A DNA stretch of 64,000 nt from Marinobacter maritimus (GTDB lineage: Bacteria; Pseudomonadota; Gammaproteobacteria; Pseudomonadales; Oleiphilaceae): positions 186,001-250,000 of the forward strand of contig NZ_VCGW01000002.1 in assembly GCF_007671675.1 (NCBI RefSeq). The letters are read 5' to 3'. The position numbers were made by a program, and so were the translations under genes. Under the pieces are notes generated by a model. The model made no database searches and had not been told where the DNA came from. It was given only the letters and a program-made list of their open reading frames with translations. Positions 7,511 to 41,962 of this stretch are shown in pieces. The stretch's first letter is position 1. Every line of letters begins with the position of its first letter.

Positions 7511-8074
7511 ATGGGCGTGATCAATAGCGAAATCAAACCGTTTAACGCAACCGCCTTCAAACGGGGCGAGTTTGTAGAAATTTCCGAAGCGGATGTGAAA
7601 GGCAAGTGGGCGATCTTTTTCTTCTATCCTGCAGATTTCACCTTCGTTTGCCCCACCGAGCTGGGCGACGTAGCAGACCATTACGAAGAACTGCAGAAAA
7701 TGGGTGTTGAAGTATTCTCCGTGTCCACCGACACGCACTTTACCCACAAAGCATGGCACGACAGCTCTGAGACCATTGGTAAGATCAACTACTTCATGGT
7801 TGGCGACCAGAACGGTAGCATTACCAACAACTTTGGCGTAATGCGTGAAGGCCAAGGCCTTGCAGACCGCGCTACTTTCCTGATTGATCCGGACGGCGTG
7901 ATTCAGGCGATGGAAATCACTGCAGAAGGTATTGGACGTGATGCTAGCGAACTGATGCGTAAAGTGAAGGCTGCCCAGTACGTGCGCAAGCACCCCGGCG
8001 AAGTTTGCCCGGCCAAGTGGAAGGAAGGCGAAGCGACACTGTCTCCTTCACTGGATCTGGTTGGCAAGATCTAA
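7511..8074 (+). CDS. ahpC: Alkyl hydroperoxide reductase C, typical 2-Cys peroxiredoxin
   Basis: The 187-residue protein has the peroxidatic Cys47 in FVCPTE and the resolving Cys166 in VCPAKW, matching the E. coli AhpC layout. AhpC reduces hydrogen peroxide and organic hydroperoxides in the cytosol and is recycled by AhpF, found about 1.1 kb downstream. The ATG at 7511 follows a CAGGAG ribosome site; an in-frame ATG 9 bp upstream is poorly placed. It is followed by two hairpins and stands as its own transcription unit. Confidence 0.97.
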
Positions 8075-8101
8075 GTTTTCATTCAGCCGAAAGCACGCAG
8101 T

Positions 8102-8157
8102 GCAGGCCCGTGTAACGGGCCTGCTACTGATAGAAAACCCCGGGCCTCCGGGGTTTT
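8102..8157 (+). terminator. Double terminator after ahpC
   Basis: There are two consecutive hairpins. A perfect 9-bp stem lies at 8102-8110/8116-8124. A perfect 10-bp stem with A-rich 5' and T-rich 3' sides lies at 8134-8143/8148-8157. The second can end transcription from both sides (ahpC on plus, the DUF3581 gene on minus). Confidence 0.85.
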
Positions 8158-8170
8158 TAGCGTCTGCGGT

Positions 8171-8902: not shown

Positions 8903-9021
8903 GTGTTGCTTGTCCTGGGTGCAAGGGGTGGCGTAGCAGTGCCTCTTGATATGGTACCGGGGTCGGGCGTTTATGGATATGCGCTATTTGTTCATTTACA
9001 GGCGAGGTAAGTGATCGGTCT

Positions 9022-9087
9022 ATAGCGGTTTGCTATCAATTGGTTTGAATCAATTAATTTGAGCATTTTTTTGCCAACCCGTATCTT
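9022..9087 (+). promoter_or_regulatory. OxyR-type operator and promoter of ahpF
   Basis: ATAG-N7-CTAT lies at 9022-9036, followed 7 bp later by a degenerate second half at 9044-9058, again 37 bp in all. A -35-like TTGAGC (9059-9064) abuts it and TATCTT (9082-9087) lies 17 bp further on. ahpF starts at 9170. The layout is the same as at ahpC, which supports both calls. Confidence 0.6.
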
Positions 9088-9169
9088 TTGAACATATCCG
9101 AATCAAAGATCATTTTGAATCCAGAAATTCAGACTGTCGGTTTAAAGAGTCTTACAGGGGAATCGTTAC

Positions 9170-10735: not shown

Positions 10736-10761
10736 AGCGAGAGCGCTACAGAGCAAAGCTG

Positions 10762-10792
10762 AAAGGGTGCTGGAGAGATCCTGCGCCCTTTT
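10762..10792 (+). terminator. Intrinsic terminator after ahpF
   Basis: A 9-bp stem (AAAGGGTGC with GCGCCCTTT, one G-T wobble) encloses a 12-nt loop and is followed by a short T run, 27 bp after the ahpF stop. Confidence 0.7.
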
Positions 10793-10941
10793 CTGGTATA
10801 GGCGCTTCCTTCTTTCCTCAACAGAGTTTGTGAAATGAGGCATTCATTCGGATTTGCTGCTTGCGTGGGCTTGCGCTGCTCGGTAATTTAGGCGCATCTA
10901 TTTGATATCGTTGCAGGACTGCATGGAGGGTGAGTGTTTAT

Positions 10942-12156
10942 ATGGTGCATCGCCTAGCCCTGCTGCTGATTTTTTTTCTGTTTCTCTTAATGGGCTTTTT
11001 CCATATGGTACGGGTGGCCCAGGCCAACCCGGGCCCCAGTGTTGTGTTTTTGTCGCCGGATGACTCCCGTTTCTGGTACCTGGTTTCGGAGTTCATGGTG
11101 GAAGTGGCAGCCGACCTGGATCTGAATCTTGAGGTCCTGTTCGACCATGACAGCCACCGGTACAGCTATCTTCGTATCGCCGAAGACGTGCTCGGACGTG
11201 AAAACAAACCGGATTACCTTGTGTTCATGTTCAAGGAGCAGGTATCTACCCGGATGCTCACATACGCGAATGAGATGGGCGTCAAGGTGTTCACGATCGA
11301 TACGGGAGTTCCGGCTGCTACCAAGGCCTCCGTCGGGGGGCCAAGAGAAACGCTTCCGAACTGGATTGGGCATTTGGCACCTGACAACGTTGGTGCCGGC
11401 CGCACGCTAACAACCATTCTTGAGCAGCAGGCACAACGTTTGGGCTTGGCCGGGCCAGGGCAGTCGCTGCCGCTCGTCGCGCTCTCGGGAACACTGGATT
11501 CGTCTGCCGCCAAGGACCGGCAGCAGGGGCTTGTAGACGCTGCTAGTGCCAATCGAAGCTATATCTTGCAGCTGGTGGATGCAGAATGGAGCCGTAAATT
11601 GGCAAAGACAAAAACGCGTGTATTGCTAAAGCGCTATCCGCAGGTTGCGGCAATCTGGAGTGCCAGTGACGGCATGGCGCTGGGTGCTATTGACGCGGCG
11701 AAGCAGGCGGGAAAACGTCCCGGTGAAGATGTTCTGGTCGGTGGTGTGGATTGGGAGCCCGAGGCTCTTGAGGCGATCCGGAGCGGTGAGTTGGCTGTCA
11801 GTCTTGGTCGCCATTTTATGGGTGGCGGGCTGGCCCTCCTGTTGCTGCACGATTATCACCATGGGTTCGACTTTTCGGACGATACATCCCCTCCGGTACT
11901 CAGCTACCAGCTTAAACCTGCCACCATCGATAACGTCGACATCGTAGAGAAGATTATGGAGCCGGAACACTGGCGAAACGTGGATTTTCGTCGTTTCAGC
12001 CGCGTGGTTGATGTTGGGGAACCTGGCGCCCGGCAAAGCGCCGATGACCTGATGGACGGGTTCACCAATGCTCTCGTTGCGGCTTACTCTAGATCAGCTT
12101 CCAAGCTATCGGTCGGTGCCCGTGCGGGCTCATCGCCCGATTCGGGGAACAAATGA
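10942..12156 (+). CDS. Periplasmic binding protein, type 1 (sugar-binding/LacI-like fold)
   Basis: The protein has about 404 residues with a signal peptide or N-terminal anchor ending near VAQAN. The body follows the ribose/galactose-binding fold: SVVFLSPDDSRFWYLVSEFMVEVAADL at the start, DYLVFMF in the first lobe, and the hinge-side segment VAAIWSASDGMALGAIDAAKQAGKRPGEDVLVGGVDW. No ABC permease or ATPase gene is near, so it may feed a signalling partner rather than a transporter. A GTG at 10930 is in frame, but GGAGG at 10925-10929 better serves the ATG at 10942. The last 73 bp overlap the end of the converging transglutaminase gene. Confidence 0.75.
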   Translation: MVHRLALLLIFFLFLLMGFFHMVRVAQANPGPSVVFLSPDDSRFWYLVSEFMVEVAADLDLNLEVLFDHDSHRYSYLRIAEDVLGRENKPDYLVFMFKEQVSTRMLTYANEMGVKVFTIDTGVPAATKASVGGPRETLPNWIGHLAPDNVGAGRTLTTILEQQAQRLGLAGPGQSLPLVALSGTLDSSAAKDRQQGLVDAASANRSYILQLVDAEWSRKLAKTKTRVLLKRYPQVAAIWSASDGMALGAIDAAKQAGKRPGEDVLVGGVDWEPEALEAIRSGELAVSLGRHFMGGGLALLLLHDYHHGFDFSDDTSPPVLSYQLKPATIDNVDIVEKIMEPEHWRNVDFRRFSRVVDVGEPGARQSADDLMDGFTNALVAAYSRSASKLSVGARAGSSPDSGNK

Positions 12157-12752
12157 GAATAAGCGTTCCGTATTCCAGATAAAATAAAATCGTGGGGGAC
12201 GTCGTGGAAAACCCCATGATCGTTCACGTATTCCATGTGTGCTTCCCCTGCCTCGGTGTATTCCTGAAAAATGGAGTCGTTCACACCGTCGAACTCCAGT
12301 GGCTCTACGTTCATTAGTTCGCACAGCTGCTTGTTGAAAGCAGGGGTGGCCTTCACCCAGCGGCCGTTGAGATAAAGCTCGATAAACCCATGCATGCGGA
12401 AAATGTCCGAGCGCAGCCATTCGATCAGCTTTGGGCTTGAGAGGTGATTGCGCACATCGGCGAGACCCAAGCGGCTGGGTATACCAATTGATCTTGCCGC
12501 TGCGCCAAGCAATACAGCTTTTGGAATGCAGTAGCTTTCGCCGGTTTTGAGCGCATAGCTGGCGCTGAAGGTTTCGGGTTCGGGGCGGAAAACGTAGGGG
12601 TTGTAGCTCACGTTGTCCCGGGCTGCCAGATACAGGGCCTTCGCCTGCTCTACCTTATTTTCGGGTACGCCCTCCAGCCGGGCCGCAATCCAGGCTTTCA
12701 GTTCGGGCTGGTTGTAGTCAAAAAATTCAGTTGGCTGGAGGTAGTGTTCCAT
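12084..12752 (-). CDS. Transglutaminase-like family protein
   Basis: The 222-residue cytosolic protein has a transglutaminase-like core. The catalytic Cys is in GESYCIPKAVLLGAAARSIGIPSRLGLADVRNHLSS. The His is probably in MHGFIELYLNGRWVKATPAFN, where the usual Asp position reads TPAFN. Such bacterial proteins are usually cysteine peptidases or amidases of unknown substrate. Its 3' end overlaps the converging binding-protein gene by 73 bp, so one of the two C-termini may be shorter than called. No operon partner is evident. Confidence 0.8.
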   Translation of the reverse strand: MEHYLQPTEFFDYNQPELKAWIAARLEGVPENKVEQAKALYLAARDNVSYNPYVFRPEPETFSASYALKTGESYCIPKAVLLGAAARSIGIPSRLGLADVRNHLSSPKLIEWLRSDIFRMHGFIELYLNGRWVKATPAFNKQLCELMNVEPLEFDGVNDSIFQEYTEAGEAHMEYVNDHGVFHDVPHDFILSGIRNAYSHLFPESGDEPARAPTDSLEADLE

Positions 12753-12863
12753 TGTTGTTGTCTATCCAGTTAGGGAACAGACCCCGGATCATCGCTGATT
12801 AGCAAGCTACAGGCAATGGCGATAACGACCACGGTGATTGCCGAAATGCATCATGCTTGCCGG

Positions 12864-13598
12864 TCAGCCGCCCCGAAACAGCTCATAAGCACACATGTTG
12901 ACTGCGGAAGCCAAATTAAGTGACTCGATTTCGCCTTTGCCCGGGATGGTGTAAGGCGTTGCGCCCAGCTGGGCCAGTGCTTCCGGCGGAACGCCGCGGG
13001 CTTCGTTACCAAACAGGTAGCAGTCGTGCTGGTGGAATGATTCTGCTGTGAGTTTGTCCCCGTTCAGGTCCAGACAGGCAACCGAGTGGTAACGGCTGCT
13101 CAAGCTGCCCAAGGGCACCTCTGTTTCCAGCGGTACGTGGAAGATAGCGCCCATGCTGGCGCGCACCACTTTCGGGTTGTATGGGTCTACACTGCCGGGG
13201 CTTAGCAGGCAGCGAAAACCGCCAAACCAGGCCAGAGTGCGTAAAATTGTTCCGAGGTTGCCAGGGTCCTGAACCTCATGCAGGTAAACCGCTTTTTCGC
13301 CGGGTTTCGATGCAGGCTCAATGTCTTTGTCCGGCATGGGCACTACGGCGAGAATCCCCTGGGGCGTTTGGGTATCGGCGAGCAGAGCCATCTGGCGCTC
13401 GTTGACATGATGGGTTCTGAACGAGCTTGGCCAATGCTCATACGCACCGGTTACATACAGCTCGGCCGCGTTCAGCTCGGGCTGGCGCATCGCAGCTTTC
13501 TGCAGTTCCAGCACCAGGTGTTCGCCTTCAACCAGATAGTGGCCCAACGCCTGACGGTATTTTTTCTGGTGCAGTTTTTTGATGTCCTCCAGCTTCAC
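12864..13598 (-). CDS. TrmH/SpoU family RNA 2'-O-methyltransferase
   Basis: The 244-residue protein has an N-terminal substrate-binding segment (KLHQKKYRQALGHYLVEGEHLV) and a C-terminal SPOUT domain. Motif 1 is VQDPGNLGTILRTLAWFG, motif 2 is the LFGNEARGVPPEAL segment, and motif 3 is IPGKGEIESLNLASAVNMCAYELFR. These make the trefoil-knot SAM site. It methylates a ribose in tRNA or rRNA; the exact nucleotide cannot be told. It overlaps the upstream FAD-protein gene by 4 bp (ATGA), so the two are translationally coupled. Confidence 0.9.
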   Translation of the reverse strand: MKLEDIKKLHQKKYRQALGHYLVEGEHLVLELQKAAMRQPELNAAELYVTGAYEHWPSSFRTHHVNERQMALLADTQTPQGILAVVPMPDKDIEPASKPGEKAVYLHEVQDPGNLGTILRTLAWFGGFRCLLSPGSVDPYNPKVVRASMGAIFHVPLETEVPLGSLSSRYHSVACLDLNGDKLTAESFHQHDCYLFGNEARGVPPEALAQLGATPYTIPGKGEIESLNLASAVNMCAYELFRGG

Positions 13599-30924: not shown

Positions 30925-31488
30925 ATGTCCAACGACACCATAGAGCGCAACCGAAACCGGCAGGACTTCTCCGGCATAGAATCGATCTGGCTGTTCGGTT
31001 ATGGCTCGCTGATTTACAAAGTGGATTTCCCGTTTCTGGAACAACGCCCCGCTTCAATCCACGGCTGGGCACGTCGGTTCTGGCAGGGATCTCACGATCA
31101 CCGCGGTACGCCGGAAGCTCCGGGCCGTGTGGTTACGCTTATTGAACAGCCCGGAGCCATATGCAAAGGCATGGCTTTCCGGGTGTCACCGATAGTGTTT
31201 GAGTATTTGGATGTGCGGGAGAAGAATGGCTACCTGCGATTCACCACAACCCTGACGTTCAATAACGGCAGTCATGGCGAGGGGTTGGTTTACATTGCCA
31301 CAGAGGACAATGAAGCGTTCCTTGGCCATGCTCCGGAAGCGGATATAGCCCGTCAGATTGCTTCAGCCGTTGGCCCTAGCGGCCTTAATTCTGAATATTT
31401 GTTGAGACTTGCAGAATCTTTGCGTGCACTGGGTGATGAGTGTTCGCACACATTTTCTATAGAGGCATTCTTAAAGGCAGACTCTTGA
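30925..31488 (+). CDS. chaC: Gamma-glutamylcyclotransferase, ChaC family
   Basis: The 187-residue cytosolic enzyme carries the family's LFGYGSLIYKVDFPF loop at residue 22-37, which holds the gamma-glutamyl group, and the FWQGSHDHRGTPEAPGRVVTL segment. The catalytic Glu lies in YLDVREKNGY. ChaC-type enzymes cleave glutathione to 5-oxoproline and Cys-Gly. A GGAGG precedes the ATG. It is the last core gene before the accessory block; the tRNA-Leu-like fragment starts 12 bp after its stop. Confidence 0.92.
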   Translation: MSNDTIERNRNRQDFSGIESIWLFGYGSLIYKVDFPFLEQRPASIHGWARRFWQGSHDHRGTPEAPGRVVTLIEQPGAICKGMAFRVSPIVFEYLDVREKNGYLRFTTTLTFNNGSHGEGLVYIATEDNEAFLGHAPEADIARQIASAVGPSGLNSEYLLRLAESLRALGDECSHTFSIEAFLKADS

Positions 31489-31499
31489 GCCAGCCATCG

Positions 31500-31525
31500 T
31501 GGGCGAGGGGCGGGATTGAACCCCC
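31500..31525 (-). other. Fragment resembling the 3' end of tRNA-Leu (possible attachment-site scar)
   Basis: Read on the minus strand, this stretch follows the last 28 nt of a bacterial tRNA-Leu (T-stem and TTCAA loop, acceptor CCCTCGC, CCA end), as I recall E. coli leu tRNA, with about 25 of 28 positions kept: two single-base losses and one G/C change. The tRNA body is missing; only 7 bp separate it from the left end of the IS remnant. 3' ends of tRNA-Leu are common phage and island insertion sites. Confidence 0.45.
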
Positions 31526-31599
31526 GGGCAGGTGTAGTGGTTCAATGATTCCGGACACCAACGTAGGTGGTAAGATCGCCACCATAAACGAGGTGTCTG

Positions 31600-31869
31600 A
31601 TGACCAGAAAGCGACGTTCTTTTTCTCCTGAGTTCAAACAGGAAGCAGCCAGCTTGGTGCTGGATCAAGGTTACACGATTCCCCAGGCGAGCGTGTCCCT
31701 GGGAATTGGTGAAAGCGCTATCCGGCGCTGGGTTAACCAACTGACCGAGGAGCGTGACGGTGTCACTCCGAAGGGCAAGGCGTTAACCCCGGAGCAGCGC
31801 CGTATTCAGGAGCTGGAAGCCCGCTGCAAGCGTCTTGAACAGGAGAAAGACATACTAAAAAAGCACCGC
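31600..31869 (+). pseudogene. IS3-family transposase OrfA, frameshifted
   Basis: The frame starts at the ATG at 31600 with a helix-turn-helix of the IS3 type (RSFSPEFKQEAASLVLDQGY, then SLGIGESAIRRWVNQ) and a leucine-zipper-like C-part (RIQELEARCKRLEQEKDILKK). After the A6G run near 31857 the usual ending TALLMSDDMNRTC reads in another frame, so one base has been lost next to the normal programmed-frameshift site. The open frame then continues by chance into OrfB-like sequence to 31995. Confidence 0.8.
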
Positions 31870-31894
31870 TCTCTTGATGTCGGACGACATGAAT

Positions 31895-32347
31895 CGTACG
31901 TGCTGATAGACCAGTTGAGTGAGCGAATGCCTGTTGAAATGGTCTGCTCAGCGAGGAAGGCGTTGTCGTCGGCCGCTTCAAGGTTCGACGATTGATGAGT
32001 GAGCTGGGGCTGATCTGTAAGCAGCCGGGCCCTCACGCCTACAAGCAGGCGACCGTTGAGCGACCGGATGTCCCGAACCATCTGGCTCGTGAGTTTACGG
32101 TAAACCGGCCGAATCAGGCGTGGTGTGGTGACATAGGAGCGTCAACGCACCGATAGAGAGGCTGTTCCGGAGCCTGAAATCTGAATGGATACCGGCCCTG
32201 GGATATCGGAATCTACCTGAGGCCAAAAAAGATGTTGGTGGCTATCTAATGGACTATTACAACCGGCAGCGACCTCACACATTCAATGATGGCATTCCGC
32301 CCGTTGCAGCTGAGGAAAACCTCAAAATACTGTCCGGGATTAGTTGA
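31895..32347 (+). pseudogene. IS3-family transposase OrfB, remnant with internal deletions
   Basis: Three disconnected pieces of the DDE integrase can be read. These are an N-terminal piece (LIDQLSERMPVEMVCSA), a middle piece ending in PNQAWCGDI, which contains the first catalytic Asp, and a C-terminal piece from IERLFRSLKSEW to the TGA at 32345, with the LGYRNLPEAKKDVGGYLMDYYN segment and the typical RPH motif. The central part with the second Asp is deleted. It cannot make an active transposase. Confidence 0.8.
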
Positions 32348-32565
32348 CCACTACAATTACATCCGCCTTTAAACAAAAGCGAACCTTGGTAATAAAGGTG
32401 CTGGGGTAGGGCAGGGTACTAGACGGTCCTGGTTGAACCGAAGGCTGCCTAATGAACAGTCAGAGATCTGTTTGAGGCTGTGAGCATGTGGGAAATTGGG
32501 TTATGCCTCCTTAGAGTCTTAAGTAACTGCCCTGGCTCAAGAACAGGGAGTGCCTACTTTAAAAC

Positions 32566-33651
32566 ATGGTTTTAAAAAAGCTCTTAAAAACAATATCTCG
32601 CGCGGCTATAAGAACAGTATGCGACAAGCGACTGGCGGAGAATAATCTAGGATTGGAACCTCATATCCTCGTCGTTCGATGGGATAACAAATTAGGGGAT
32701 GCTATAGTTTCATCCTTCTTCTATAGAGAAGCGAAAAAACTGAACGCCAAAGTTACGGTTCTTACCACACCTGAGCTAGAACCTTTATATACCAAGGACT
32801 TTGGGGTAGAGCACATTATCGCAACTAGTCCAAATCCCAGTTTTGGTGAGCTCCGGACAATAGCTAAACAACTGGAGCAAGTAGATGCGGTGGTTCATTT
32901 GGTTGGTAGAGTTCAGCCGAGTGAAATATTGTTTTTCTATTTGCTCCAACCTGTGCTCATTTATTCACTGGACGATGCGCTGCTATGTGTGAACCGTAAG
33001 TTCAATGCGCGAACTGCAGGGCAATCATTTGCCTTAAAGTATGAAGCAATACTTCGTGATCTGGGTTTGAAATCGGTTAACAACGAGTATGTGATACCTT
33101 GGCCTGAGAACCCCAAGCGATTGGTAGATGTGCCAGAAATTTTGTTCAACCCGTACGCAAGCCGTCCGGATAAGAGTATCAGCCACGAAAAATCGCTAGA
33201 GCTGCTTTGCAGAGTCGCCAAAAAATACCCGCAACAAATTATCGGCGTCCTCAGCAATAATTCGGACAGACCAAAGGCTGAGAAACTTGTTGAGGAAATC
33301 AATCTCTCGAATGTACTTGCTTTGAGCGATGTTGATACGCCTCAGGATGTCGCCTTTTTGATGAGTCAGGTTGAAGTCGTAATTTCCGTAGACACCGCAA
33401 TTGTTCATTTAGCGGTGGGGCTGGGGAAGAAGTTAATTGCCATATACCCTTATACAAAAGAGCCCAACCCTTGGCTGCCACCGCTATGTGACAATGTTGC
33501 GGTTGTTCTTAGCTATCATGATACCTCTCGCTACGATCGAACTGGCGTTAAAAATATGAATTTATTCAGTAGCCTAGAGGTAATGAGTACGCTAGAGCCT
33601 TGGATTAAGTTCGAGAAACGAGAACTCAATGTGGACTTGGATTCCTACTAG
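32566..33651 (+). CDS. GT9-family glycosyltransferase (heptosyltransferase-like)
   Basis: The 361-residue protein has the two-lobe GT-B layout of LPS heptosyltransferases: HILVVRWDNKLGDAIVSSFFYREAKKL in the N-lobe and, in the C-lobe, VEVVISVDTAIVHLAVGLGKKLIAIYPYTKEPNPWLPP. The SVDTAIVHLAxGLGKK motif is diagnostic. Codon use is clearly AT-richer than in flanking core genes. The ribosome site is weak. It faces the minus-strand operon that follows and lies directly after the IS remnant. It would add a sugar to LPS core or another envelope glycan; the substrate is unknown. Confidence 0.85.
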   Translation: MVLKKLLKTISRAAIRTVCDKRLAENNLGLEPHILVVRWDNKLGDAIVSSFFYREAKKLNAKVTVLTTPELEPLYTKDFGVEHIIATSPNPSFGELRTIAKQLEQVDAVVHLVGRVQPSEILFFYLLQPVLIYSLDDALLCVNRKFNARTAGQSFALKYEAILRDLGLKSVNNEYVIPWPENPKRLVDVPEILFNPYASRPDKSISHEKSLELLCRVAKKYPQQIIGVLSNNSDRPKAEKLVEEINLSNVLALSDVDTPQDVAFLMSQVEVVISVDTAIVHLAVGLGKKLIAIYPYTKEPNPWLPPLCDNVAVVLSYHDTSRYDRTGVKNMNLFSSLEVMSTLEPWIKFEKRELNVDLDSY

Positions 33652-33676
33652 GAATGGCATTCCTGTTGTCCGTAAC

Positions 33677-34483
33677 TTATCGGCTCACCAGTTGTTCCAG
33701 TCGTTCAGCTTCTCCGATCCAGTAACCCGGATCGCCGTCAATGTGAAGGAATAGCTTGGAAAGTAGCGTCCCACCCTCCAAAAAATCTGAAACGGACTCA
33801 ATGTGATTGGAGGTGCGAGTGAAATAGGTGTTATAGAGTTTGAGCAATGATGGCTTCGCTAAGAGGAAGTCTTCCGGTTCGACATCTCGGCGGCTCATAA
33901 CCTCGCAAGTAGAGAAGTTATAGGAAGGTCTGTAGCCTGGATCCACGTTGGAATGAGGGATTGGATGCAAATTGCTTTCCTGCTCAGCGATTATCTCTCG
34001 GATTTCTCCCGGATTACCCCAGTCGTGCTTGTTTTTAATAAACCCCTTTTCAATAGCTTCACCGAGGATTGGATTGCCTGGCTTGGACCCGAATAGCGCT
34101 TCGCTGTACCAATGAAGCTCTTCCGTGAGCCCGTTGGGGAAAAGATTGCCGCTTGGGTCATGGAATAAGAGCGTATCGGCATCCAACCACGCACCTCCAT
34201 GCCTATAGACAAATGCCAGCCGAATGTAGTCGCTTTTGGCAACAATCGATTCGATTCCAGAGTTCATTTTAAAGGGAAGAGGGTTGAATGCCCAATTGGT
34301 TTCTAGGGTGGTGGAGTCAATATACTGTGAAGCATTGGAGGTGGTAAGTAGAAGAAACTTATCTCCTAAAGCCCTTCGCATAGATGCGATAGCTAACGCG
34401 ACCCAGGGAGGAATGCGGCTCCCGGGGGCCGTTTCCCAATACGTCACATATTTTGGGATGGCGTTCCCTGCTGAAGTTACCAT
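33677..34483 (-). CDS. GT32-like glycosyltransferase with DxD motif
   Basis: The 268-residue protein resembles capsule-type glycosyltransferases of the GT32/Gly_transf_sug group: KYVTYWETAPGSRIPPWVALAIASMRR (like the common IPKxIHxxW opening), then SDYIRLAFVYRHGGAWLDADTLLF, with the metal-binding DAD at 101-103. The family moves a sugar from a nucleotide-sugar in the cytosol. It is the last gene of the four-gene minus-strand operon and overlaps the phosphoribosyltransferase-like gene by 7 bp. An acceptor made by the operon is plausible but unproven. Confidence 0.75.
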   Translation of the reverse strand: MVTSAGNAIPKYVTYWETAPGSRIPPWVALAIASMRRALGDKFLLLTTSNASQYIDSTTLETNWAFNPLPFKMNSGIESIVAKSDYIRLAFVYRHGGAWLDADTLLFHDPSGNLFPNGLTEELHWYSEALFGSKPGNPILGEAIEKGFIKNKHDWGNPGEIREIIAEQESNLHPIPHSNVDPGYRPSYNFSTCEVMSRRDVEPEDFLLAKPSLLKLYNTYFTRTSNHIESVSDFLEGGTLLSKLFLHIDGDPGYWIGEAERLEQLVSR

Positions 34484-35613
34484 TCAGTAGACAGTCCTTT
34501 TGAATCGAGTAGTCCAGCGTCATAGAGATATTTCCTCAGCAATCTAAGAGATGGTCTTGTGTCCTCTCTCCTCATGAGCTCGCTTCCTAGTGCCGCTTTG
34601 TAGAGCTCCAGCAGATTTTTTATAGGTAATTGCGGCAAAAACTCACTGAGCTTGGCCTGATTCTTCTTTGAAAAGACTAAGCGAACGGTTCGAAGAATTG
34701 GTTGGAAATCTGAACTGCTGAGTATTGAGTAAACTGTTTCATCAAGAACTTCTTTAACTAAAGCGGTGTTAAGTCTTTCCTCAATATTTGCTTGTGAAAG
34801 TGATAGCCGTGGGTCGATAGCGATTGGGTAGATTGATTGGAAGGACTTGGCTCCATTGATAGTGGATTCATAAAGAACCTTATCTGCCGTGGCCCCGGTA
34901 ACCAGAACATCGTCTCCGAAAATTACGTGCACCCCTCCCCAGCGATAAAAATTTTCTGCAGGGATAACGTGATCTTGGGTACGATTCACGATTTCGCGCT
35001 CTTCCGCCGAGAGAGCTCCGTAGTTCTCACAGGGAGGTGCGATTCTAGGCAGCCTCACCTCGACAATTGTGGGAAGTTCAAGATTAGCGAGTTTGAGATT
35101 GATCTCTCGGACGACAATGGAATAGAGGACGTTCGAAGTTGAAGGAACATTTCGCCAACCCGTCGTCATCATAACGACCGTATCGTTTCGTTCTTTGGCT
35201 TCGCGAAAGAGCCTAGCCCAATGGGATTCTGGCTGATCCAGTTGAGCTGAGAGGTAATTGATTATTGAAAAGGCGAGTGCATTGATGTCTTGTATGCTTC
35301 CATGCTTTGCTCGGCTGTACGATACTACCAGTTCGTCCGCGTCCAATCCGGTACCCATGTAATTAAAGGCACCGGGAGCTACCTCGGTCAAATAGTTCAA
35401 AGCGTGGCCACCAAAAATGGAGACGTATTGATCCATGCTGATATGTTCGCTGGCAAACAATCCCGCAGCCAAAGATCGGAAGCCTTTCTCAGCGTAGCTA
35501 GGATCGTTTTTGGATCGGTTATGCTCAAAGAACTCGAGTTGAACATGAGAGGGCTTTTCCAAAATCTCGTATAAGCTTGGTTGACTGCCCGTGTCCGGAT
35601 TTTTGATTGTCAC
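34477..35613 (-). CDS. Phosphoribosyltransferase-like protein of unknown role
   Basis: The 378-residue soluble protein has a PRPP-binding-type motif at about 228-242: VHVIFGDDVLVTGAT, close to the V-x-DDV-xTGAT loop of type I phosphoribosyltransferases. Upstream, VSIFGGHALNYLTEVAPGAFNYMG and ADELVVSYSRAKHGS are unusual for purine or pyrimidine salvage enzymes, and the family is longer than the normal 180-240 residues. PRTases of this larger type occur in uncharacterised biosynthetic and tellurite-linked clusters, as I recall. The start is GTG at 35613 with an AAGTGA-like site. It follows the PHP gene by 18 bp and overlaps the GT32 gene. Confidence 0.6.
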   Translation of the reverse strand: MTIKNPDTGSQPSLYEILEKPSHVQLEFFEHNRSKNDPSYAEKGFRSLAAGLFASEHISMDQYVSIFGGHALNYLTEVAPGAFNYMGTGLDADELVVSYSRAKHGSIQDINALAFSIINYLSAQLDQPESHWARLFREAKERNDTVVMMTTGWRNVPSTSNVLYSIVVREINLKLANLELPTIVEVRLPRIAPPCENYGALSAEEREIVNRTQDHVIPAENFYRWGGVHVIFGDDVLVTGATADKVLYESTINGAKSFQSIYPIAIDPRLSLSQANIEERLNTALVKEVLDETVYSILSSSDFQPILRTVRLVFSKKNQAKLSEFLPQLPIKNLLELYKAALGSELMRREDTRPSLRLLRKYLYDAGLLDSKGLSTEW

Positions 35614-35631
35614 AATTTAGTCACTTACTAG

Positions 35632-36483
35632 TTAGGCGATTGGTTTTCTGGTAGATGCGTCTGGTCTCAGGCGGTTTACCGGCACGTCGACTCGCCTTCG
35701 GCGTTCGTAGTAACTCACTGTGTGAAGCCCAGCTGGCTGGAGAACGTTTAGCATCTCTTGGATGCCGGCACCTACGTCTCGGGGGGTGTGGGCGTCTGCC
35801 CCGATGGTGAACGAGGTATGATGAGAGATTAGTTTTGGTAAAAGGCCCAAACTTGGGTATGACCACAATCCAGCTATTTTTGCGCCACTACAAGGGTCGA
35901 ACGAAGATTTTCGGAGTCCTGAGGCATTGAGTTCGAACGATATATCGTATTCACGAAAAAGAGGCAAAAGCCTTTCGAATCTCTGATCGACTACATTGGC
36001 CTGAACCCCTCTTAGTAATGTGTCTGCATGCCCTACTGCATCAAAAAGACCACAGCTCAGCAACCCTTCCATATTATCAAAGTAATGATCCACGAAATCT
36101 GGATCCGCGAGTCGAGGTAAGTCCCAAACTCTTACCAGTTCGCCTGTTGAAAGGCGAACATAGTGAATTGAACCGATGGCAAAATCTATGTCATATCTGC
36201 TTTGTAAGTTCCGATTATATTCATCTGTGCCCGGCATATAGTCGAACTCAAGTCCTGAAAGAATTTGAATCCGTCCTCTGAAGTTTTGTCTAGCCTGCTC
36301 GATATCCTCGAAATACCGGTCGAGTTCCGTCTCTAGGAGACGATTGTCGGAATCGACGGGGAATGGCGCATGGTCTGTGATCGTGAGGACTTCGATCCCC
36401 GCAGATATGGCTGCACATACCAAGTCATCGACAGTGCCTTCTGCGTGCTTCGAGTACATGGTGTGCGAGTGAGAGTCGATCAT
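35632..36483 (-). CDS. PHP-domain phosphoesterase (HisK-type histidinol-phosphatase-like)
   Basis: The 283-residue protein has all the metal-site signatures of the PHP fold: HSH at 5-7, DH at 37-38 (TITDHAPF), Glu79, His107 (GSIHYV), His152 (VGHADTLL) and DAH at 230-232. Stand-alone members of this size include HisK histidinol phosphatases, which hydrolyse a phosphate monoester with a trinuclear metal centre. It is unlikely to serve histidine synthesis here, since no his gene is near and the neighbours are a radical SAM and a PRTase-like protein. Its start overlaps the radical SAM stop by 4 bp (ATGA). Confidence 0.82.
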   Translation of the reverse strand: MIDSHSHTMYSKHAEGTVDDLVCAAISAGIEVLTITDHAPFPVDSDNRLLETELDRYFEDIEQARQNFRGRIQILSGLEFDYMPGTDEYNRNLQSRYDIDFAIGSIHYVRLSTGELVRVWDLPRLADPDFVDHYFDNMEGLLSCGLFDAVGHADTLLRGVQANVVDQRFERLLPLFREYDISFELNASGLRKSSFDPCSGAKIAGLWSYPSLGLLPKLISHHTSFTIGADAHTPRDVGAGIQEMLNVLQPAGLHTVSYYERRRRVDVPVNRLRPDASTRKPIA

Positions 36484-37508
36484 AATGATTCGATTTCTGC
36501 CAGCAGCCCCTTATGGTGCTCAATTTCTTTGATCAGCCAATACGGGTTATTCGCTTTCTCAACGATTGACCGAACGAGATGTTGATCGCTTAGCTGATCA
36601 AGGACATCAGCCAAAGGCTGCGTGTACAAATTTCTGACTAAAGGAGTGCAAGTGACATGGTTTGAAAGAGCCTCCCAATCCAGTTCATCGCTATGAATGT
36701 TGCCTATAGACCTATTTTCAAGGCCGTAAAAGTAGACGTTTCCATCCGGCTTTACAGTAACATCCATCCCGTTTGCCGTGGGCGCTTTGTTCATGCTTCC
36801 TAGTGTGAATCGTTTCTTAGTCTTATTTTCAATTGCTTCTATGTATCCATACAAATCTAGATATCCAGCTGGGGTGTTCGGCAATGGATGCACCAGGTTT
36901 TTGTAGTCAATAGAGAAGGTAGTACCCCCAACCACTAAGGCGTCTTCCAAGGCACCGCGGGGCTCGATCGTCGATTGCATCCCCCAGTCATTTAGCTCGG
37001 ATATGAGATAGTCACGCGCAAAGCTGCGGTCGGCATCGATTGATCGGAAGGAGAAGGTTAGATTCGATGGTCGATGAGTTAGTAGATAGTTGATGCTGAA
37101 ACCATGTGCCCGCCACTTCACTCTTTCGATATGATGGCTGTCGGTGCTCAATCGAATGTTGCATGTGTCGCCTTGGCTAGCAGCGATTCGATTGGTTCTT
37201 TCGTAAAACTCAGCCATCTTGTCGTGCGGGAAGAATCCACTTGTGATGAATTCAAAAGCTTTGCCACCTCCGGACAGACCCAGGATCTCGTGAAACGTCT
37301 TAATGTTGTTGAGTGGCTCTCCCTCTCCGCTGATCGAGATACGCTTAACTGAGGGGGAGTTGATTAACCTACCAAGATTCTCTCTGGCCAGAATAGAGAG
37401 TTCCATGTTGCTGCCGGTTTCGTGCTTATCAGCATACATGCAGAACGCACAGCCGATTCCACATATCTGAGTGATATCGACATACAAAAGGTGATCTTCA
37501 AGAATCAT
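36480..37508 (-). CDS. Radical SAM protein, first gene of the four-gene operon
   Basis: The protein has about 342 residues. The cluster-binding motif CxxxCxxC is at 16, 20 and 23 (CGIGCAFC), followed by the GEGEP-like SISGEGEPLNN at about 58-68, which binds SAM. The C-terminal half has the shape of a minor-type SPASM-less family: GMDVTVKPDGNVYFYGLENRSIGNI resembles the C-terminal region of radical SAM enzymes that modify peptides or sugars, but without added cysteines. A TTG 3 bp upstream is in frame; the ATG at 37508 with GGAAGG is better. It probably catalyses a radical step on a small molecule or peptide; the substrate is unknown. Confidence 0.8.
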   Translation of the reverse strand: MILEDHLLYVDITQICGIGCAFCMYADKHETGSNMELSILARENLGRLINSPSVKRISISGEGEPLNNIKTFHEILGLSGGGKAFEFITSGFFPHDKMAEFYERTNRIAASQGDTCNIRLSTDSHHIERVKWRAHGFSINYLLTHRPSNLTFSFRSIDADRSFARDYLISELNDWGMQSTIEPRGALEDALVVGGTTFSIDYKNLVHPLPNTPAGYLDLYGYIEAIENKTKKRFTLGSMNKAPTANGMDVTVKPDGNVYFYGLENRSIGNIHSDELDWEALSNHVTCTPLVRNLYTQPLADVLDQLSDQHLVRSIVEKANNPYWLIKEIEHHKGLLAEIESL

Positions 37509-37511
37509 CAA

Positions 37512-37987
37512 CTGCCTTCCGTTTTTGTGGTGTTTTTGATAGCCAAGACTCTGATCTTGATGCCTTTGATAGCAAGCTATCTGCCCTCTGGGAGGCTGTC
37601 AAAGGATTTCGGTTGAACTTATGTTATTGCACTATGTGGCATCAGCATTCAGATCGTTGTTAAGAGCGCCTCCGATCAAAAGGGGTTCTACCCCGCTTCC
37701 ATGGACGCTTTTGAAACGGGTGTGGACTTCCCCCGGTGCAGTGGACACTCCTAGTCTATGATTGGACTTCCCCTATTAATTTAAGACACCTGCGGGCCTC
37801 AAACGAAGGCCGCTTAACACGCATTTATCGGCAGACCGGAATGTTCGCTTTGCGACCAATACCGCTTGGATAGTCAACCATATTTGCGTGCTTAGATCGC
37901 ATCAAGTGGCGGTTCCCGGCGGTCCGTTCAAAAGGCTCCGCTGTCGCGGCCGCCCATGAAGTCTCGACCTATTTCAGACATTGCCTT
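37512..37987. other. 476-bp intergenic stretch with repeats and no gene
   Basis: I see no open frame with a plausible product. It holds the TGGACTTCCCCC/GTGGACACTCC-like half repeats near 37727-37750, repeat copy A (37764-37859) and an imperfect hairpin GCGGGCCT/AGGCCGC around 37793-37813 with one bulged base. The composition suggests remnant mobile-element ends. Confidence 0.55.
37764..37859 (+). repeat. Intergenic repeat, copy A
   Basis: It shares with copy B (40076-40158) the order GGACTTCC, GACAC, TCAAAC-GA-GGCC and GAATGTTCGYTTTGCGACC. The last 20 bp also occur at 40899-40918 with two changes and one extra base. The copies bracket a module of three genes (DUF2306-like, lipoprotein, LysR). 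Confidence 0.65.
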
Positions 37988-38674
37988 TTATCCAGTTGGA
38001 TTGCCGGATAACGTAAGCCTCTTGTCGGAAAAAAACAGGATTCTGGTTACCCAATATAAAGTGGTAATCAGTATGAGCATGGTTGGTATCCCCACGATGA
38101 GTAACAGCTGTTCTCCCTGCATGCTCTTGATATTAGCGCCCATCATTTTTACGATTTTATCGGTGAATGCTAATGCTGCCCATACCAGTGAAAAGCCAAT
38201 GCGCCAGACATGGCGAATAATACGTTGAGTGCCAGAAAGCCCTGAATGGTAAAGGTTACGAATATCCCCCAATGCAAGCAGAATCGCCAAACCACCCCAC
38301 ATCACATAGGCAATGGGCGCCTGTACCTCTCGCCAACCCATACTGATAAAAAATGCGGTAACGGCGAAACCGATAACCCAGATCAAAGCAGTTATTTCCA
38401 TCAGACCAGGTTCATTCTTTTTATGGCGGGCGGCTAACCAGGCGGTGAACACGGTATACATCACTATTCCGCCCAACATCATGTCATCAATTGAATTTTT
38501 GAGGTAAGCCGTTGCAATACCCGAAGCCAACATGATCATCATGGATACCGTAAACCAGGAACCTGCTTTCTTATGGTGTGCACTCCCTTTCTTAACGAAC
38601 ATGGCAAGGACAGCTGTCACCAATACGACCGTTCCCGCAGGTGCATGTATGGCCCAAACAATGATGTCTTTCAT
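37988..38674 (-). CDS. DUF2306-like integral membrane protein
   Basis: The 228-residue protein has about six membrane segments. The N-terminal HAPAGTVVLVTAVLAMFVKKGSAHHKKAGSWF matches the DUF2306 type (HxxxG then G-x-HRxxG-like GSAHHKKAGSW), whose His residues may bind haem or quinone. The middle and the C-terminal HVWRIGFSLVWAALAFTDKIV keep this character. No function is established for the family. The gene is AT-richer than the core, in the accessory block, and about 50 bp from the lipoprotein gene on the same strand. Confidence 0.7.
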   Translation of the reverse strand: MKDIIVWAIHAPAGTVVLVTAVLAMFVKKGSAHHKKAGSWFTVSMMIMLASGIATAYLKNSIDDMMLGGIVMYTVFTAWLAARHKKNEPGLMEITALIWVIGFAVTAFFISMGWREVQAPIAYVMWGGLAILLALGDIRNLYHSGLSGTQRIIRHVWRIGFSLVWAALAFTDKIVKMMGANIKSMQGEQLLLIVGIPTMLILITTLYWVTRILFFSDKRLTLSGNPTG

Positions 38675-38724
38675 CTGAAGAGTCTCGGGTAACTGTTTGC
38701 TAGAAATTGGATGACTGACGTTGA

Positions 38725-39048
38725 TTAGTTGCCATTCAATTTCTTGATAGCCATGTACCCGTATTGCGAATTGCTGTGCTCCTGGGCCAGGTATTCGTAA
38801 AGGGTGTTGGCGGTCTCTCCGTCACCGAGACCCTCGTAAGTCATTGCTTTTAAATAGGTCAATTCTGCTTTCGTTTCATCTGACATTGCCTCTGCGTTTT
38901 CTGCCTGTGTGATCAGTTCCAACGTACGATCGTATTGTTCACGCTGGTAATGTTTATAGGCTTCGGAAATGGAGGCAGTTTGAATCAGGCTCGCACATGC
39001 GCCGAGCGATAGTGTTACTGCTAGCAGTGCGATAATAGGTGATTTCAT
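38725..39048 (-). CDS. Small tetratricopeptide-like lipoprotein
   Basis: The 107-residue protein has a lipobox (SLGACAS, Cys near residue 18) and two short helical repeats, SEAYKHYQREQYDRTLELITQAENA and AELTYLKAMTYEGLGDGETANTLYEYLAQEH, of TPR type. The ATG at 39048 with GAGGA upstream is the start; a TTG 9 bp earlier is in frame but unlikely. It is divergent from the LysR gene and lies upstream of the DUF2306-like gene on the same strand. A role as an outer-membrane or periplasmic scaffold is likely. Confidence 0.72.
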   Translation of the reverse strand: MKSPIIALLAVTLSLGACASLIQTASISEAYKHYQREQYDRTLELITQAENAEAMSDETKAELTYLKAMTYEGLGDGETANTLYEYLAQEHSNSQYGYMAIKKLNGN

Positions 39049-39135
39049 CGCTACCAATCCTCTTAATGTGATTTGAAGTCGACAATCCTACCAATGCATC
39101 AATGAAACCAATACAATGAATTTTGGACTTCAGGT

Positions 39136-40053
39136 ATGCATATTTGTATGGATTGGAAATCAATAACATTCGACTGGAACCGTGCTCGGGCTTTTTTGGT
39201 TACGGCGGAAGAAGGCTCCCTGGCCGCGGCAGCCCGGTCAATGGGAATGACGCAACCTACCCTTGGGCGACAGGTAGCGGCGCTGGAGAGTGAAATTGGA
39301 TTCGATTTATTTACCAGAAGAGGTCGAGGCCTGGAGCTAACGCCCAATGGCATCAAATTGTTAGAACATGTGCGACTGATGGGTGATGCCGCTAACCAGT
39401 TTTCTTTATCAGCTTCGGGTAAATCAGACCAAATCGAGGGCGACGTTAGCATTACCGCTTCAGAACTCCTTTCCACGTTTATGCTGCCATCCATGATCAA
39501 GGCGTTGCGGAAGCTGGAGCCTGGCATCGAGATCGAAATACATTCAACTAACGAACAACGTGACATCAATCGAAGAGAGGCTGATATTGCTATCCGGAGT
39601 GTTCGTCCGACACAGCCGGAGTTGATTGCAAAACGACTGTGCAGTGTTCAAGGCCATCTTTACGCCGCAAAAAGCTATCTGAAGCAACTGGGTGATCCTC
39701 CTACGATCGACGAGTTGAACAAGGCCCACTTCATTGATACTGAGAATCCTGGCCGCCTCATGGAGTTGCTTAATTCTCAAGGGCTTACCCTAACCAAGCA
39801 GAATTTTCCCGTTATTTCAAATAGTCACATGGTTCAGTGGGAATTGGTCAAACAAGGAGTGGCCATCACTGTAACCTTAGAGGAAATCGGAGATAACGAG
39901 CCACTGGTTGAGCGTGTCGTTATCTCCGACTTGCCCCTGATAAACATTGACCTATGGCTAGTTACTCACAATGAATTACGAACTAACCGTCGAATCAGGC
40001 GAGTCTTTGATTTCCTCGTATCGGCGTTTGCTGGCCAAGTTACCCAAGAATAG
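39136..40053 (+). CDS. LysR-family transcriptional regulator
   Basis: The 305-residue protein has an N-terminal HTH (RARAFLVTAEEGSLAAAARSMGMTQPTLGRQVAALESEIGFDLFTRRGRG) and a periplasmic-binding-like effector domain from about 95. It is divergent from the lipoprotein/DUF2306 pair, so it probably regulates them and itself. The ATG at 39148 (MDWKSITFDW) is an alternative start. It ends just before repeat copy B and converges with the ccdAB pair. Confidence 0.9.
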   Translation: MHICMDWKSITFDWNRARAFLVTAEEGSLAAAARSMGMTQPTLGRQVAALESEIGFDLFTRRGRGLELTPNGIKLLEHVRLMGDAANQFSLSASGKSDQIEGDVSITASELLSTFMLPSMIKALRKLEPGIEIEIHSTNEQRDINRREADIAIRSVRPTQPELIAKRLCSVQGHLYAAKSYLKQLGDPPTIDELNKAHFIDTENPGRLMELLNSQGLTLTKQNFPVISNSHMVQWELVKQGVAITVTLEEIGDNEPLVERVVISDLPLINIDLWLVTHNELRTNRRIRRVFDFLVSAFAGQVTQE

Positions 40054-40075
40054 TTGGCACCTCTGATAGTTAGGT

Positions 40076-40158
40076 GGACTTCCTCCGATATGCATGACAC
40101 ACCCTAGCGTCAAACCGAGGCCTTCGGACTCGGATCTGAATGTTCGTTTTGCGACCAA
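40076..40158 (+). repeat. Intergenic repeat, copy B
   Basis: This is the counterpart of copy A. It has GGACTTCC at 40076, TCAAAC-CGAGGCC in the middle with a CCGAG/CTCGG hairpin, and GAATGTTCGTTTTGCGACC at 40138-40156. It lies between the LysR stop and the ccdB stop. Confidence 0.65.
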
Positions 40159-40190
40159 GACGATTGACTGACCTCAGCTAAACAAAAATG

Positions 40191-40508
40191 TTAAATGCCA
40201 GTGACAGCAAGGTCCAGAGCTCCGACAACCTGGTCTCTGAAATGCGAGAGGGAACCAACCGGGTTTTTGAGATGCTTTTTTGGCACAGAGGAAATTTGTG
40301 GGGTTAGCAGTAAAAGTTCTTGATTGGCAAAGCTGATTCCCGGCGTGAGTCCTTGCATGGATTCGCCACCAAAGGCGGAGCGTTTGCCCAAAGGGATAAC
40401 GATTCGAGTTGCCAATTCGCTCAGGAGGCTGCTTTGAATATCGACAAGGTAAGGATAATGAGCTTTGCTGACTTTGCTTGGGTTGGGGTACACATCGAAC
40501 TGTGACAT
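40191..40508 (-). CDS. ccdB: CcdB-family toxin, gyrase poison type
   Basis: The 105-residue protein aligns with CcdB: MSQFDVYPNPSKVSKAHYPYLVDIQSSLL, ATRIVIPL, then MQGLTPGISFANQELLLLTPQISSVP and a helical end FRDQVVGALDLAVTGI. It ends TGI as I recall for the Vibrio fischeri integron type, not WGI of the F plasmid, whose last three residues poison DNA gyrase. Its start ATG shares an A with the ccdA stop (TAATG), which couples translation. An upstream ATG adds ten residues and is rejected. Confidence 0.9.
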   Translation of the reverse strand: MSQFDVYPNPSKVSKAHYPYLVDIQSSLLSELATRIVIPLGKRSAFGGESMQGLTPGISFANQELLLLTPQISSVPKKHLKNPVGSLSHFRDQVVGALDLAVTGI

Positions 40509-40753
40509 TAGAACTCCCTGAATTCGTCGCCGAAGCATCCATGTTGTTCGACAAAATCGTTGTAATTTTTTATTGCAGCGCGATTTTCTTCAACCCATTG
40601 TGCTGCTTCGCGTTTGGAAAGCTCTTCTTTCAGGGCTCGCTCCAGAGTAGCAGACAGGTTGATGTTGAGTTCCCGAGTTTTGCGCAGTAGATCGCTATTG
40701 ATGGAGAGGTTAGCTGCCTTTTTGGGTGCGGTTGCATTGTAGAGTTCGGCCAT
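40508..40753 (-). CDS. ccdA: CcdA-family antitoxin
   Basis: The 81-residue protein has a ribbon-helix-helix N-terminus (KKAANLSINSDLLRKTRELNINLSATLERALKEELS) and a disordered, acidic C-terminal toxin-binding tail (AQWVEENRAAIKNYNDFVEQHGCFGDEFREF), the CcdA layout. The RHH part binds the operon promoter and represses it. An upstream ATG at 40828 is open but a strong GGAGG site lies just before 40753. The pair stabilises the DNA that carries it. Confidence 0.9.
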   Translation of the reverse strand: MAELYNATAPKKAANLSINSDLLRKTRELNINLSATLERALKEELSKREAAQWVEENRAAIKNYNDFVEQHGCFGDEFREF

Positions 40754-40818
40754 CAGAGCCTCCAGGTAACTGTTTAATGCACGACTTATTGTATGCGCAC
40801 GCCAATGCGCATTCAAGT

Positions 40819-40890
40819 ATTTAACCAACGGCTGCTGTCGGACGCGCCTTAGCTAGCGCTCCGGCACGCCGCAAAGCCACGGCGTTATTC
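40819..40890 (+). repeat. attC-like folded site next to ccdAB
   Basis: The left core ATTTAAC fits RYYYAAC. The right end reads GTTATTC, which keeps GTT but not the full GTTRRRY. Between them the two halves pair as an imperfect stem (GGCT/AGCC, TG/CA, CGG/CCG, CG/CG, GCC/GGC) with extra unpaired bases on one side and a 14-nt loop, as in integron cassette sites. No integrase gene is in the window. Confidence 0.4.
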
Positions 40891-40898
40891 CCAAATCT

Positions 40899-40918
40899 GA
40901 ACGTTCGCTTTAGCGACC
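40899..40918 (+). repeat. Intergenic repeat, short copy C
   Basis: GAACGTTCGCTTTAGCGACC matches the 3' end of copies A and B with two substitutions and one inserted base. It lies just after the attC-like site, so the ccdAB module is bracketed by copies B and C. Confidence 0.55.
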
Positions 40919-41071
40919 GTAGCTTCAGTTGTGTGCCTCCGCAAATCAACCTTTGGCACGTTGCATTCAGCTTTGGTGTCACCTCCTACGCTGAGAAGTG
41001 ATCCGGACCCCGTATCAGGTCCTGCCAGTTAGTAGCAGGTTATTCCTTGGCATCTCTATGTGCCGAGGGTA

Positions 41072-41962
41072 TCAACCATTCAGCGGTTGAGCTCGTAATA
41101 CTCGGTGGCTCCGCTGACGGGAACGCATCCCCACCATAATCAGCGGCACTATAATCATGACGCTGCCTACAGCGAACCAAAGGTCTGGCACCTCATTGAA
41201 ACCTATCCAGCCAATCAGCACCGCCCAGATCAGGCCAGTGTATTCGGCGCTGGTGACCTGATTGGCGTCTACTTGATGGTAGGCCAGCAGCACAGCGATG
41301 TTGTAACCCAAAATGAAAAATGCAGACGCAGCTGCGGTAAACAGGATTGCCGGATCCCAGGACGCGCCCTGCTGCCACTCCCACAAGGCAAGCAGTCCCG
41401 ATGCCGGAATCACCAGCAAGTAGTTGAGAAACAGCTTGTGTACCGTGGTCTGGGTTTTTGGCAGTTTGCGGACCATGACCGCATTTATGGCCAGTGTGAT
41501 CGCCGACCCAAGCGCAGCAACAGCCGCCCAGTTGAACTCCACCGGGCGAAGGATAACGATAATGCCGGCAAAACCACTGAACACCGCAAACACATTCAGG
41601 GGTGACAGGACTTCCCGGAAGATAAACACCGAGAACACCATCACCAGAATCGGGGCTGCATAAAATACGGCGTTGGCGGTGGCGAGTGGCAGGTTGCTCA
41701 GGGCTACTATCATGCACAACAGTCCCACCAGGTGCACGTGAGCCCTTATGGCATGTACCTTTATGCCGGCAAACAGGTTGGTTCGGTCGATCTTGCGCGC
41801 CAGTGGCAGCAGGAGCACAAGAGTGAGCATGCAGCGTACAAACGCAAACTGAAAAATCGGCGCGCCCGGCTCCAGAAGCTTGATGAACACGTCGGAGACC
41901 AGTGCCATGGCATTGCCGATCACTAGAAGCAGTATGGCGCTGTTGACGGTTTTCCCTGACAT
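41072..41962 (-). CDS. EamA/DMT family transporter
   Basis: The 296-residue protein has ten membrane segments in two EamA repeats (residues about 8-135 and 150-285), with PLATANAVFYAAPILVMVFSVFIFREVL as the typical end of the first. The family exports metabolites or amino-acid derivatives. It diverges from the LysR gene at 42310, its likely regulator. Composition has returned to the core level, marking the right end of the accessory block. Confidence 0.88.
   Translation of the reverse strand: MSGKTVNSAILLLVIGNAMALVSDVFIKLLEPGAPIFQFAFVRCMLTLVLLLPLARKIDRTNLFAGIKVHAIRAHVHLVGLLCMIVALSNLPLATANAVFYAAPILVMVFSVFIFREVLSPLNVFAVFSGFAGIIVILRPVEFNWAAVAALGSAITLAINAVMVRKLPKTQTTVHKLFLNYLLVIPASGLLALWEWQQGASWDPAILFTAAASAFFILGYNIAVLLAYHQVDANQVTSAEYTGLIWAVLIGWIGFNEVPDLWFAVGSVMIIVPLIMVGMRSRQRSHRVLRAQPLNG

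Follow-up and report, generated by a model that had tools for sequence, protein, structure and literature searches.

Most known bacterial immune systems that produce small molecules need only one or two enzymes for the purpose. Anantharaman and colleagues reportedly proposed in 2012 that a nucleoside-like metabolite is made around Ter-associated phosphoribosyltransferase (PRTase) genes, whose partners are said to be ATP-grasp, HAD, and other enzymes. JukA, of the jumbo phage killer (Juk) system, works with diverse effectors, according to the portion of a review considered here (PMC13282480). In a 64,000-nucleotide stretch of the Marinobacter maritimus genome (contig NZ_VCGW01000002.1, positions 186,001 to 250,000; the whole stretch is referred to as the window), a block of five enzyme genes, encoding a radical S-adenosylmethionine (SAM) enzyme, a PHP phosphatase, a PRTase, and glycosyltransferases of the GT32-like and GT9 types, keeps its order across many Proteobacteria. 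We propose, with a probability of roughly 0.45, that this mobile, order-conserved cassette, which lies mostly beside anti-phage genes, makes a nucleoside-like compound through ribosylation, dephosphorylation, and glycosylation, and that this compound is the shared output of interchangeable phage sensors.

Conservation of the five-gene unit

Thirty-seven loci outside the window were compared, 34 from species genomes through a PRTase alignment and three from plasmids through a protein search, and the presence of each gene was scored by tblastn with the window proteins. The PRTase gene is present in all 37, the radical SAM and PHP genes in 36 each, GT32 in 28, and GT9 in 27, with complete four-gene sets in 27/37 and complete five-gene sets in 23/37. 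The core of the unit is thus radical SAM-PHP-PRTase, and the glycosyltransferases are accessory. The one locus without the full core (L016, a 7.1-kb metagenome-derived contig) carries PRTase, GT32, and GT9 genes but neither radical SAM nor PHP; it was counted as a miss, and may be either a misassembly or a real reduced form. Two of the glycosyltransferase misses, L025 and L035, sit at contig ends, and GT9 was counted as present where a distant form (29%; L003, L004, and L007) or an upstream GT9 (35%; L029) was found. The loci are not independent, in that the 38 PRTases (the window's own included) fall into 20 clusters at 90% identity. Chance packing of the genes is excluded, because the same order is conserved elsewhere.

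Because this set of loci was anchored on the PRTase, we used the radical SAM gene as a second anchor. It was found in nine of 398 genomes of the genus group of L002 (Pseudomonas), with one copy each; all eight of the regions that were fetched contain the five genes together with JukA, four of them repeating known loci and four being new, and the ninth genome, that of Pseudomonas protegens 14B2, from which L002 itself comes, likewise has all five genes and JukA. The radical SAM gene occurs once in ten known-locus genomes that were searched whole, and the PRTase and radical SAM queries match the identical three of 72,556 plasmid records. In a large protein set, 27 longest-contig sizes are in common among the best 120 listed per family, compared with 0 to 2 after the lengths were shifted. 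We note that one PRTase cluster, P0043, stands for 507 contigs and carries the source name Pseudomonas aeruginosa, and the PRTase family may therefore be frequent in P. aeruginosa.

Exchange of the cassette between defense modules

At least one phage-defense-type module adjoins the cassette in 28 of the 37 loci: JukA in 20, a TerY-P/CoCoNuT-like module in five, and a PIN/ClpB-like module in three more. Ahead of the cassette on the three annotated plasmids lie a WYL gene, a gene of the 'ubiquinol-cytochrome C chaperone family', and a gene for a membrane/hypothetical protein, with DUF262 and helicase genes nearby in 3/3, AbpA in 2/3, and a DNA methyltransferase in 1/3. PADLOC identifies the chaperone-like protein as JukA (2.6e-58) and the protein next to it as PDC-M40B. 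Two other forms of the chaperone-like protein are likewise named JukA, which makes three representatives with values of 2.6e-58, 2.6e-56, and 3e-55, and it is tblastn with these three that gives the 20 JukA loci.

Five further loci encode a UPF1-like helicase (MkoA-like in PADLOC), a winged helix-turn-helix (wHTH) protein, a coiled-coil AAA/McrB-like protein, and a DUF2357 protein. The wHTH protein of these CoCoNuT-like loci ends in a HEPN-type RN..H motif, and in the four of these five loci that were extended, the helicase is preceded by VWA, PP2C, and kinase genes (by Pfam or tblastn). The wHTH protein of L013 (2197-3711) has a match to PF24409, 'wHTH-PRTase associated', and a weak one to the PADLOC retron PRTase_III-A model, which may connect this wHTH with PRTases in a second way. 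The third module, composed of PIN, coiled-coil, and ClpB-like AAA genes, occurs in L021 (12-7770), L022 (26-7823), and L035, and also in L034 (12272-21061), where JukA is present too; an NrdG-like radical SAM gene accompanies it in three of the four. PADLOC gives only candidate families (PDC-M37B, DolB) for its AAA protein, and the PIN, coiled-coil, ClpB-like, and NrdG-like gene set may be a defense system in its own right. The orientation of the modules relative to the cassette varies, being inverted in L022 and L032.

Nine loci lack all three module types. L003 has BREX genes upstream, L027 has PDC-M16 genes downstream, L004 and L025 are at contig ends, and L016, L019, L026, and L030 have none of these modules. 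In L007, which has no module left, a fragment before the cassette (7622-7870) is 83% identical to the NrdG-like gene, as if it were the trace of a lost module.

Comparison of individual loci shows how the cassette relates to these neighbors. L010, a Pseudomonas mandelii RIT-562 locus from the CoCoNuT-like side, and L012, from the JukA side, share one match (8009-13412; 95.8% over 5.4 kb) that extends from about 75 bp before the radical SAM gene to about 75 bp before the GT9 start; there is no other BLAST match at 1e-10 between the two 21-kb loci, and their PRTases are 98.9% identical. Because these near-identical copies, matching nowhere else, adjoin different modules, we conclude that the cassette is exchanged as a unit. 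L022 (PIN/ClpB-like, inverted) and L018 (WYL-JukA) share a stretch of 95.9% identity that begins at 8081 and reaches almost to a contig end. In a quick tree built from 35 of the 38 rows (leaving out L016, which has no radical SAM gene, and L025 and L035, whose genes run off their contigs), at least eight changes of module label occur among the 27 labelled rows, a count made without a shuffled control. The matches and the tree together therefore identify the five-gene cassette as the conserved, exchanged unit and the neighboring sensor as the variable part. A search for terminal repeats found none.

Gene families and active sites

The four minus-strand open reading frames (ORFs) of the window (36480-37511, 35632-36483, 34477-35613, and 33677-34483) are all intact and are joined, in order, by a 4-bp overlap (radical SAM/PHP), an 18-bp gap (PHP/PRTase), and a 7-bp overlap (PRTase/GT32). 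Their features are listed in Table 1.

Table 1. Coordinates of the cassette, its predicted functional motifs, and the surrounding island in the window
Feature	Position	Strand	Basis or remark
Radical SAM enzyme, 342 aa from conserved ATG	36480..37508	-	Pfam/NCBIfam, alignments, 36/37 other loci
CxxxCxxC cluster motif (C16, C20, C23)	37440..37463	-	Invariant in alignments of 24 and 23 rows
HisJ-type PHP phosphatase, 283 aa	35632..36483	-	Pfam, NCBIfam, metal ligands
ComF-like PRTase (PRTase_3-related), 378 aa	34477..35613	-	
PRPP loop DDVLVTGAT (residues 234-242)	34888..34914	-	Invariant residues in alignment
GT32-like (Caps_synth/Gly_transf_sug, DXD) glycosyltransferase, 268 aa	33677..34483	-	Pfam; 28/37 other loci
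DXD motif (DAD, residues 101-103)	34175..34183	-	Sequence; identical in 4 relatives inspected
GT9 (heptosyltransferase-type) glycosyltransferase, 361 aa, convergent	32566..33651	+	Fifth member of unit
Accessory island, ChaC-like gene to EamA-type gene	31494..41134 (ends approximate)		~9.6 kb

For the radical SAM gene, we prefer the ATG start at 37508 to the TTG at 37511 because the relatives begin at the aligned residue. The window copy scores below the PF04055 cut-off (22.9 versus 29.5 bits), with relatives in L009 and L003 at 32.3 and 27.3, respectively; membership of the radical SAM superfamily is supported by the CxxxCxxC motif and the fold, the CxxxCxxC loop itself being of low confidence in the structure model. 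C16, C20, C23, and C116 are the only invariant cysteines in the alignment. The PHP protein matches PF02811 (1.1e-24) and the NCBIfam HisJ family TIGR01856 (123.7 bits; cut-off, 90.2), and its metal set (D3/H5/H7/H13/D37/H38/E79/H107/H152/D230/H232) shows no variation across 13 sequences. The PRTase scores 27.4 bits with PRTase_3 (PF15610), slightly under the curated cut-off of 28.7. Residues D234, D235, T239, G240, and T242 of its phosphoribosyl pyrophosphate (PRPP) loop are unchanged in 92 aligned rows. Its predicted structure has a type I PRTase fold with ComF as the best match and the PRPP loop kept, and the window PRTase is, as modeled, a type I, ComF-like enzyme with an intact predicted PRPP-binding loop. 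The GT32-like protein matches both PF05704 (Caps_synth/GT-DXD; 32.6 versus 24.5) and PF04488 (26.7 versus 23).

The convergent GT9 gene at 32566-33651 also belongs to the unit; its product matches PF01075 (45.6 bits; cut-off, 22), and the gene lies within the exchanged block. Its size varies, from 361 aa in the window to 488 to 524 aa in L002, L010, and L036, which have an additional C-terminal part, and in L003 and L007 the distant GT9 is in a frame of about 690 to 700 aa.

A first-pass annotation of this DNA, made from its letters alone, had described four same-strand genes with the overlaps and gap given above and with intact active-site residues (CxxxCxxC, the PHP metal set, the PRPP loop, and DAD), and all of this is confirmed by the ORF coordinates and alignments. 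Its PRTase assignment agrees with the structure model, and its ordered unit recurs with all four genes in 27 of the other loci. The four genes it singled out are indeed a conserved unit, although GT9 was overlooked as the fifth member.

Proposed function and its alternatives

Starting from what is directly supported (the gene families and their order, the JukA and TerY-P/CoCoNuT-like operons alongside, and the cassette's exchange as a block), our best chemical guess is a ribosylated and glycosylated nucleoside-like product. The radical SAM enzyme would make or modify an unusual base or precursor, to which the ComF-like PRTase would add ribose-5-phosphate with PRPP as the donor; the HisJ-type PHP enzyme would take the phosphate off, and GT32 and GT9 would attach sugars. 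The order of these steps is conjectural, and the radical step could come before or after the others. Given the linkage to defense genes, the product may be an effector or a signal in immunity, which might poison phage replication or signal infection once the neighboring sensor fires. More tentatively, a single pathway could yield a new antiviral or signaling nucleoside as the common output of unrelated sensors (JukA, the TerY-P/CoCoNuT helicase, and PIN/ClpB-like), with the sensor swapped and the chemistry kept. If so, the chemistry and the sensing of immunity would evolve independently, as plug-in parts, and JukA-linked and TerY-P-linked copies should yield one and the same compound. Such a pathway may help to account for the action of JukA and TerY-P systems, and a radical SAM-PRTase pathway would be of interest to natural-product chemistry.

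Toxic PRTases have precedents in ShosT and, as reported, in the PRTase domain of RqlH, and it is conceivable, if unlikely, that the PRTase itself is the toxic effector of an abortive infection system, with the radical SAM, PHP, and transferase proteins maturing, restraining, or detoxifying it. However, the ShosTA toxin-antitoxin system has a DprA-like antitoxin partner, and none is present among the island ORFs scanned with Pfam; moreover, the tight coupling of radical SAM, PHP, and PRTase (36/37 loci) resembles a pathway, and a toxin-antitoxin pair offers no evident place for two glycosyltransferases. We give a lower chance to the idea that, instead of making a free small molecule, the cassette phosphoribosylates and glycosylates a macromolecule, namely RNA, DNA, or a protein of phage or host origin. 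RNA-active families in the neighboring modules (a HEPN-type motif, PIN_4, a weak NYN-like match, and helicases) are in keeping with such a target, as is the DNA handling that is possible for ComF-type PRTases in the part of the source considered (PMC9005727), but the PHP enzyme belongs to the HisJ group, in which the structurally solved members use small phosphate esters, and Pfam and NCBIfam scans name no nucleic-acid-binding domain in the five window proteins. We doubt even more that the cassette is a passenger of defense islands with no immune role. Nine of the 37 loci lack JukA and both other module types, and the 64-kb window holds no recognized sensor for its copy; nonetheless, a module in one orientation or the other adjoins the cassette in 28 of the loci, and we estimate the chance of lying less than 10 kb from a one- or two-copy gene in a 5-Mb genome at about 1%, with the true passenger chance being greater than this because defense-island genes cluster.

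The Caps_synth/GT32 and heptosyltransferase-type GT9 matches could point to part of a surface polysaccharide (capsule or lipopolysaccharide) locus that alters phage adsorption, but this is improbable, since the transferases are dispensable (28 and 27 of 37) whereas radical SAM-PHP-PRTase is constant (36/37). We rejected such a locus because no flippase, polymerase/transport, or sugar-nucleotide gene is found among the island ORFs scanned with Pfam. The reading to which we give the least weight of all is that the radical SAM protein is an EpeE-like epimerase acting on a ribosomal peptide, within a peptide natural-product pathway. EpeE has cysteines for an auxiliary 4Fe-4S cluster, whereas the four invariant cysteines here imply that there is no auxiliary cluster; only about 40 to 180 bp lie between radical SAM and the gene before it in L002, L006, L010, and L036, leaving no room for a precursor gene there, and the unit shows neither a peptidase nor an exporter. 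This pathway was rejected on these grounds.

Synthesis of a nucleoside-like compound for exchangeable sensors thus remains our preferred reading. None of the outcomes that the first-pass annotation had named as fatal to its proposal (no co-occurrence, no PRPP pocket, or a polysaccharide locus) was found, and the check that it suggested, for phage, tellurite, or defense genes next to the unit, finds JukA, TerY-P/CoCoNuT-like, and BREX genes in relatives. The conserved unit and the PRTase stand from its overall reading, which missed the phage-defense neighborhood and the swapping of the cassette from sensor to sensor. It knew of no described system with this set, and we likewise found no description of the five genes in the literature searched, which covers few subscription papers.

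The window copy and its island

In Marinobacter maritimus, the cassette lies in an accessory island, as the low G+C content (46 to 49% across 32-41 kb) and the island boundaries indicate. DNA alignment with five same-genus relatives stops at 31415-31493 and picks up again at 41112-41141. The flanking ChaC-like and EamA-type genes are matched in all 18 same-genus genomes examined, its own included, and are spaced 9.6 kb apart in the window and at most 0.7 kb apart in 10/17 relatives (about 0.2 kb in genome G022); in the remaining 7/17 they are more widely spaced or split between contigs. The PRTase has no match in the other 57 relatives searched, and the radical SAM gene has none at 1e-30 in two broader genome samples that overlap each other (397 and 368 genomes besides its own). 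Copies with 91 to 95% identity are carried by metagenome contigs (P0001, P0121). The island also carries the remains of an IS3-type element at its left end (31600-32376, plus strand), with an orfA-like frame (PF01527) followed by short pieces, and, near its right end, a CcdB and CcdA toxin-antitoxin pair with both frames open (40191-40828, minus strand).

Three JukA representatives gave no tblastn match in the 64-kb window, using the same queries that succeed in the eight radical-SAM-anchored regions, and none in its own genome, in a search without an inner control. None of the TerY-P/CoCoNuT-like representatives matched in the window. The role of the window copy is the least certain point of our proposal, because there is no recognized sensor there; standing alone, this cassette may respond to a sensor encoded at another site in the genome, may function unaided, or may have been left stranded.

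Comparison with known systems

ComF and ShosT differ from the window PRTase both in sequence, at about 10% identity, and in their partner genes, and a profile search found no sequence relative of this PRTase in the PDB. A prokaryotic viperin was considered for the radical SAM protein and rejected, as it falls far under the cut-off of the NCBIfam viperin model (11.6 versus 180 bits; pVip, 0.0017). To our knowledge, viperin systems have no PRTase partner. The Ter-associated module, as it is said to be composed, is similar in that a PRTase_3-type PRTase lies near TerY-P genes in the CoCoNuT-like loci; however, no ATP-grasp or HAD gene was seen in the cassette, which has radical SAM, PHP, GT32, and GT9 genes instead.

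The Juk system is similar in that JukA adjoins the cassette in 20/37 loci and in 8/8 radical-SAM-anchored regions. It differs in that the effectors named in the portion of the review considered are JukB, phospholipases, and transcriptional regulators, with no radical SAM-PRTase cassette among them (PMC13282480), and in that the window copy is without JukA. For the TerY-P/CoCoNuT type II-like systems, the likeness rests on gene make-up and order, and such genes are absent from the window; in the part of the CoCoNuT paper considered, PRTase, phosphoribosyl, and radical SAM have zero occurrences (PMC11090510). Nonetheless, the four extended loci contain the VWA, PP2C, kinase, UPF1-like helicase, wHTH/HEPN-type, coiled-coil AAA, and DUF2357 genes, arranged as that part of the paper describes for TerY-P CoCoNuTs, with the cassette following directly after them (PMC11090510).

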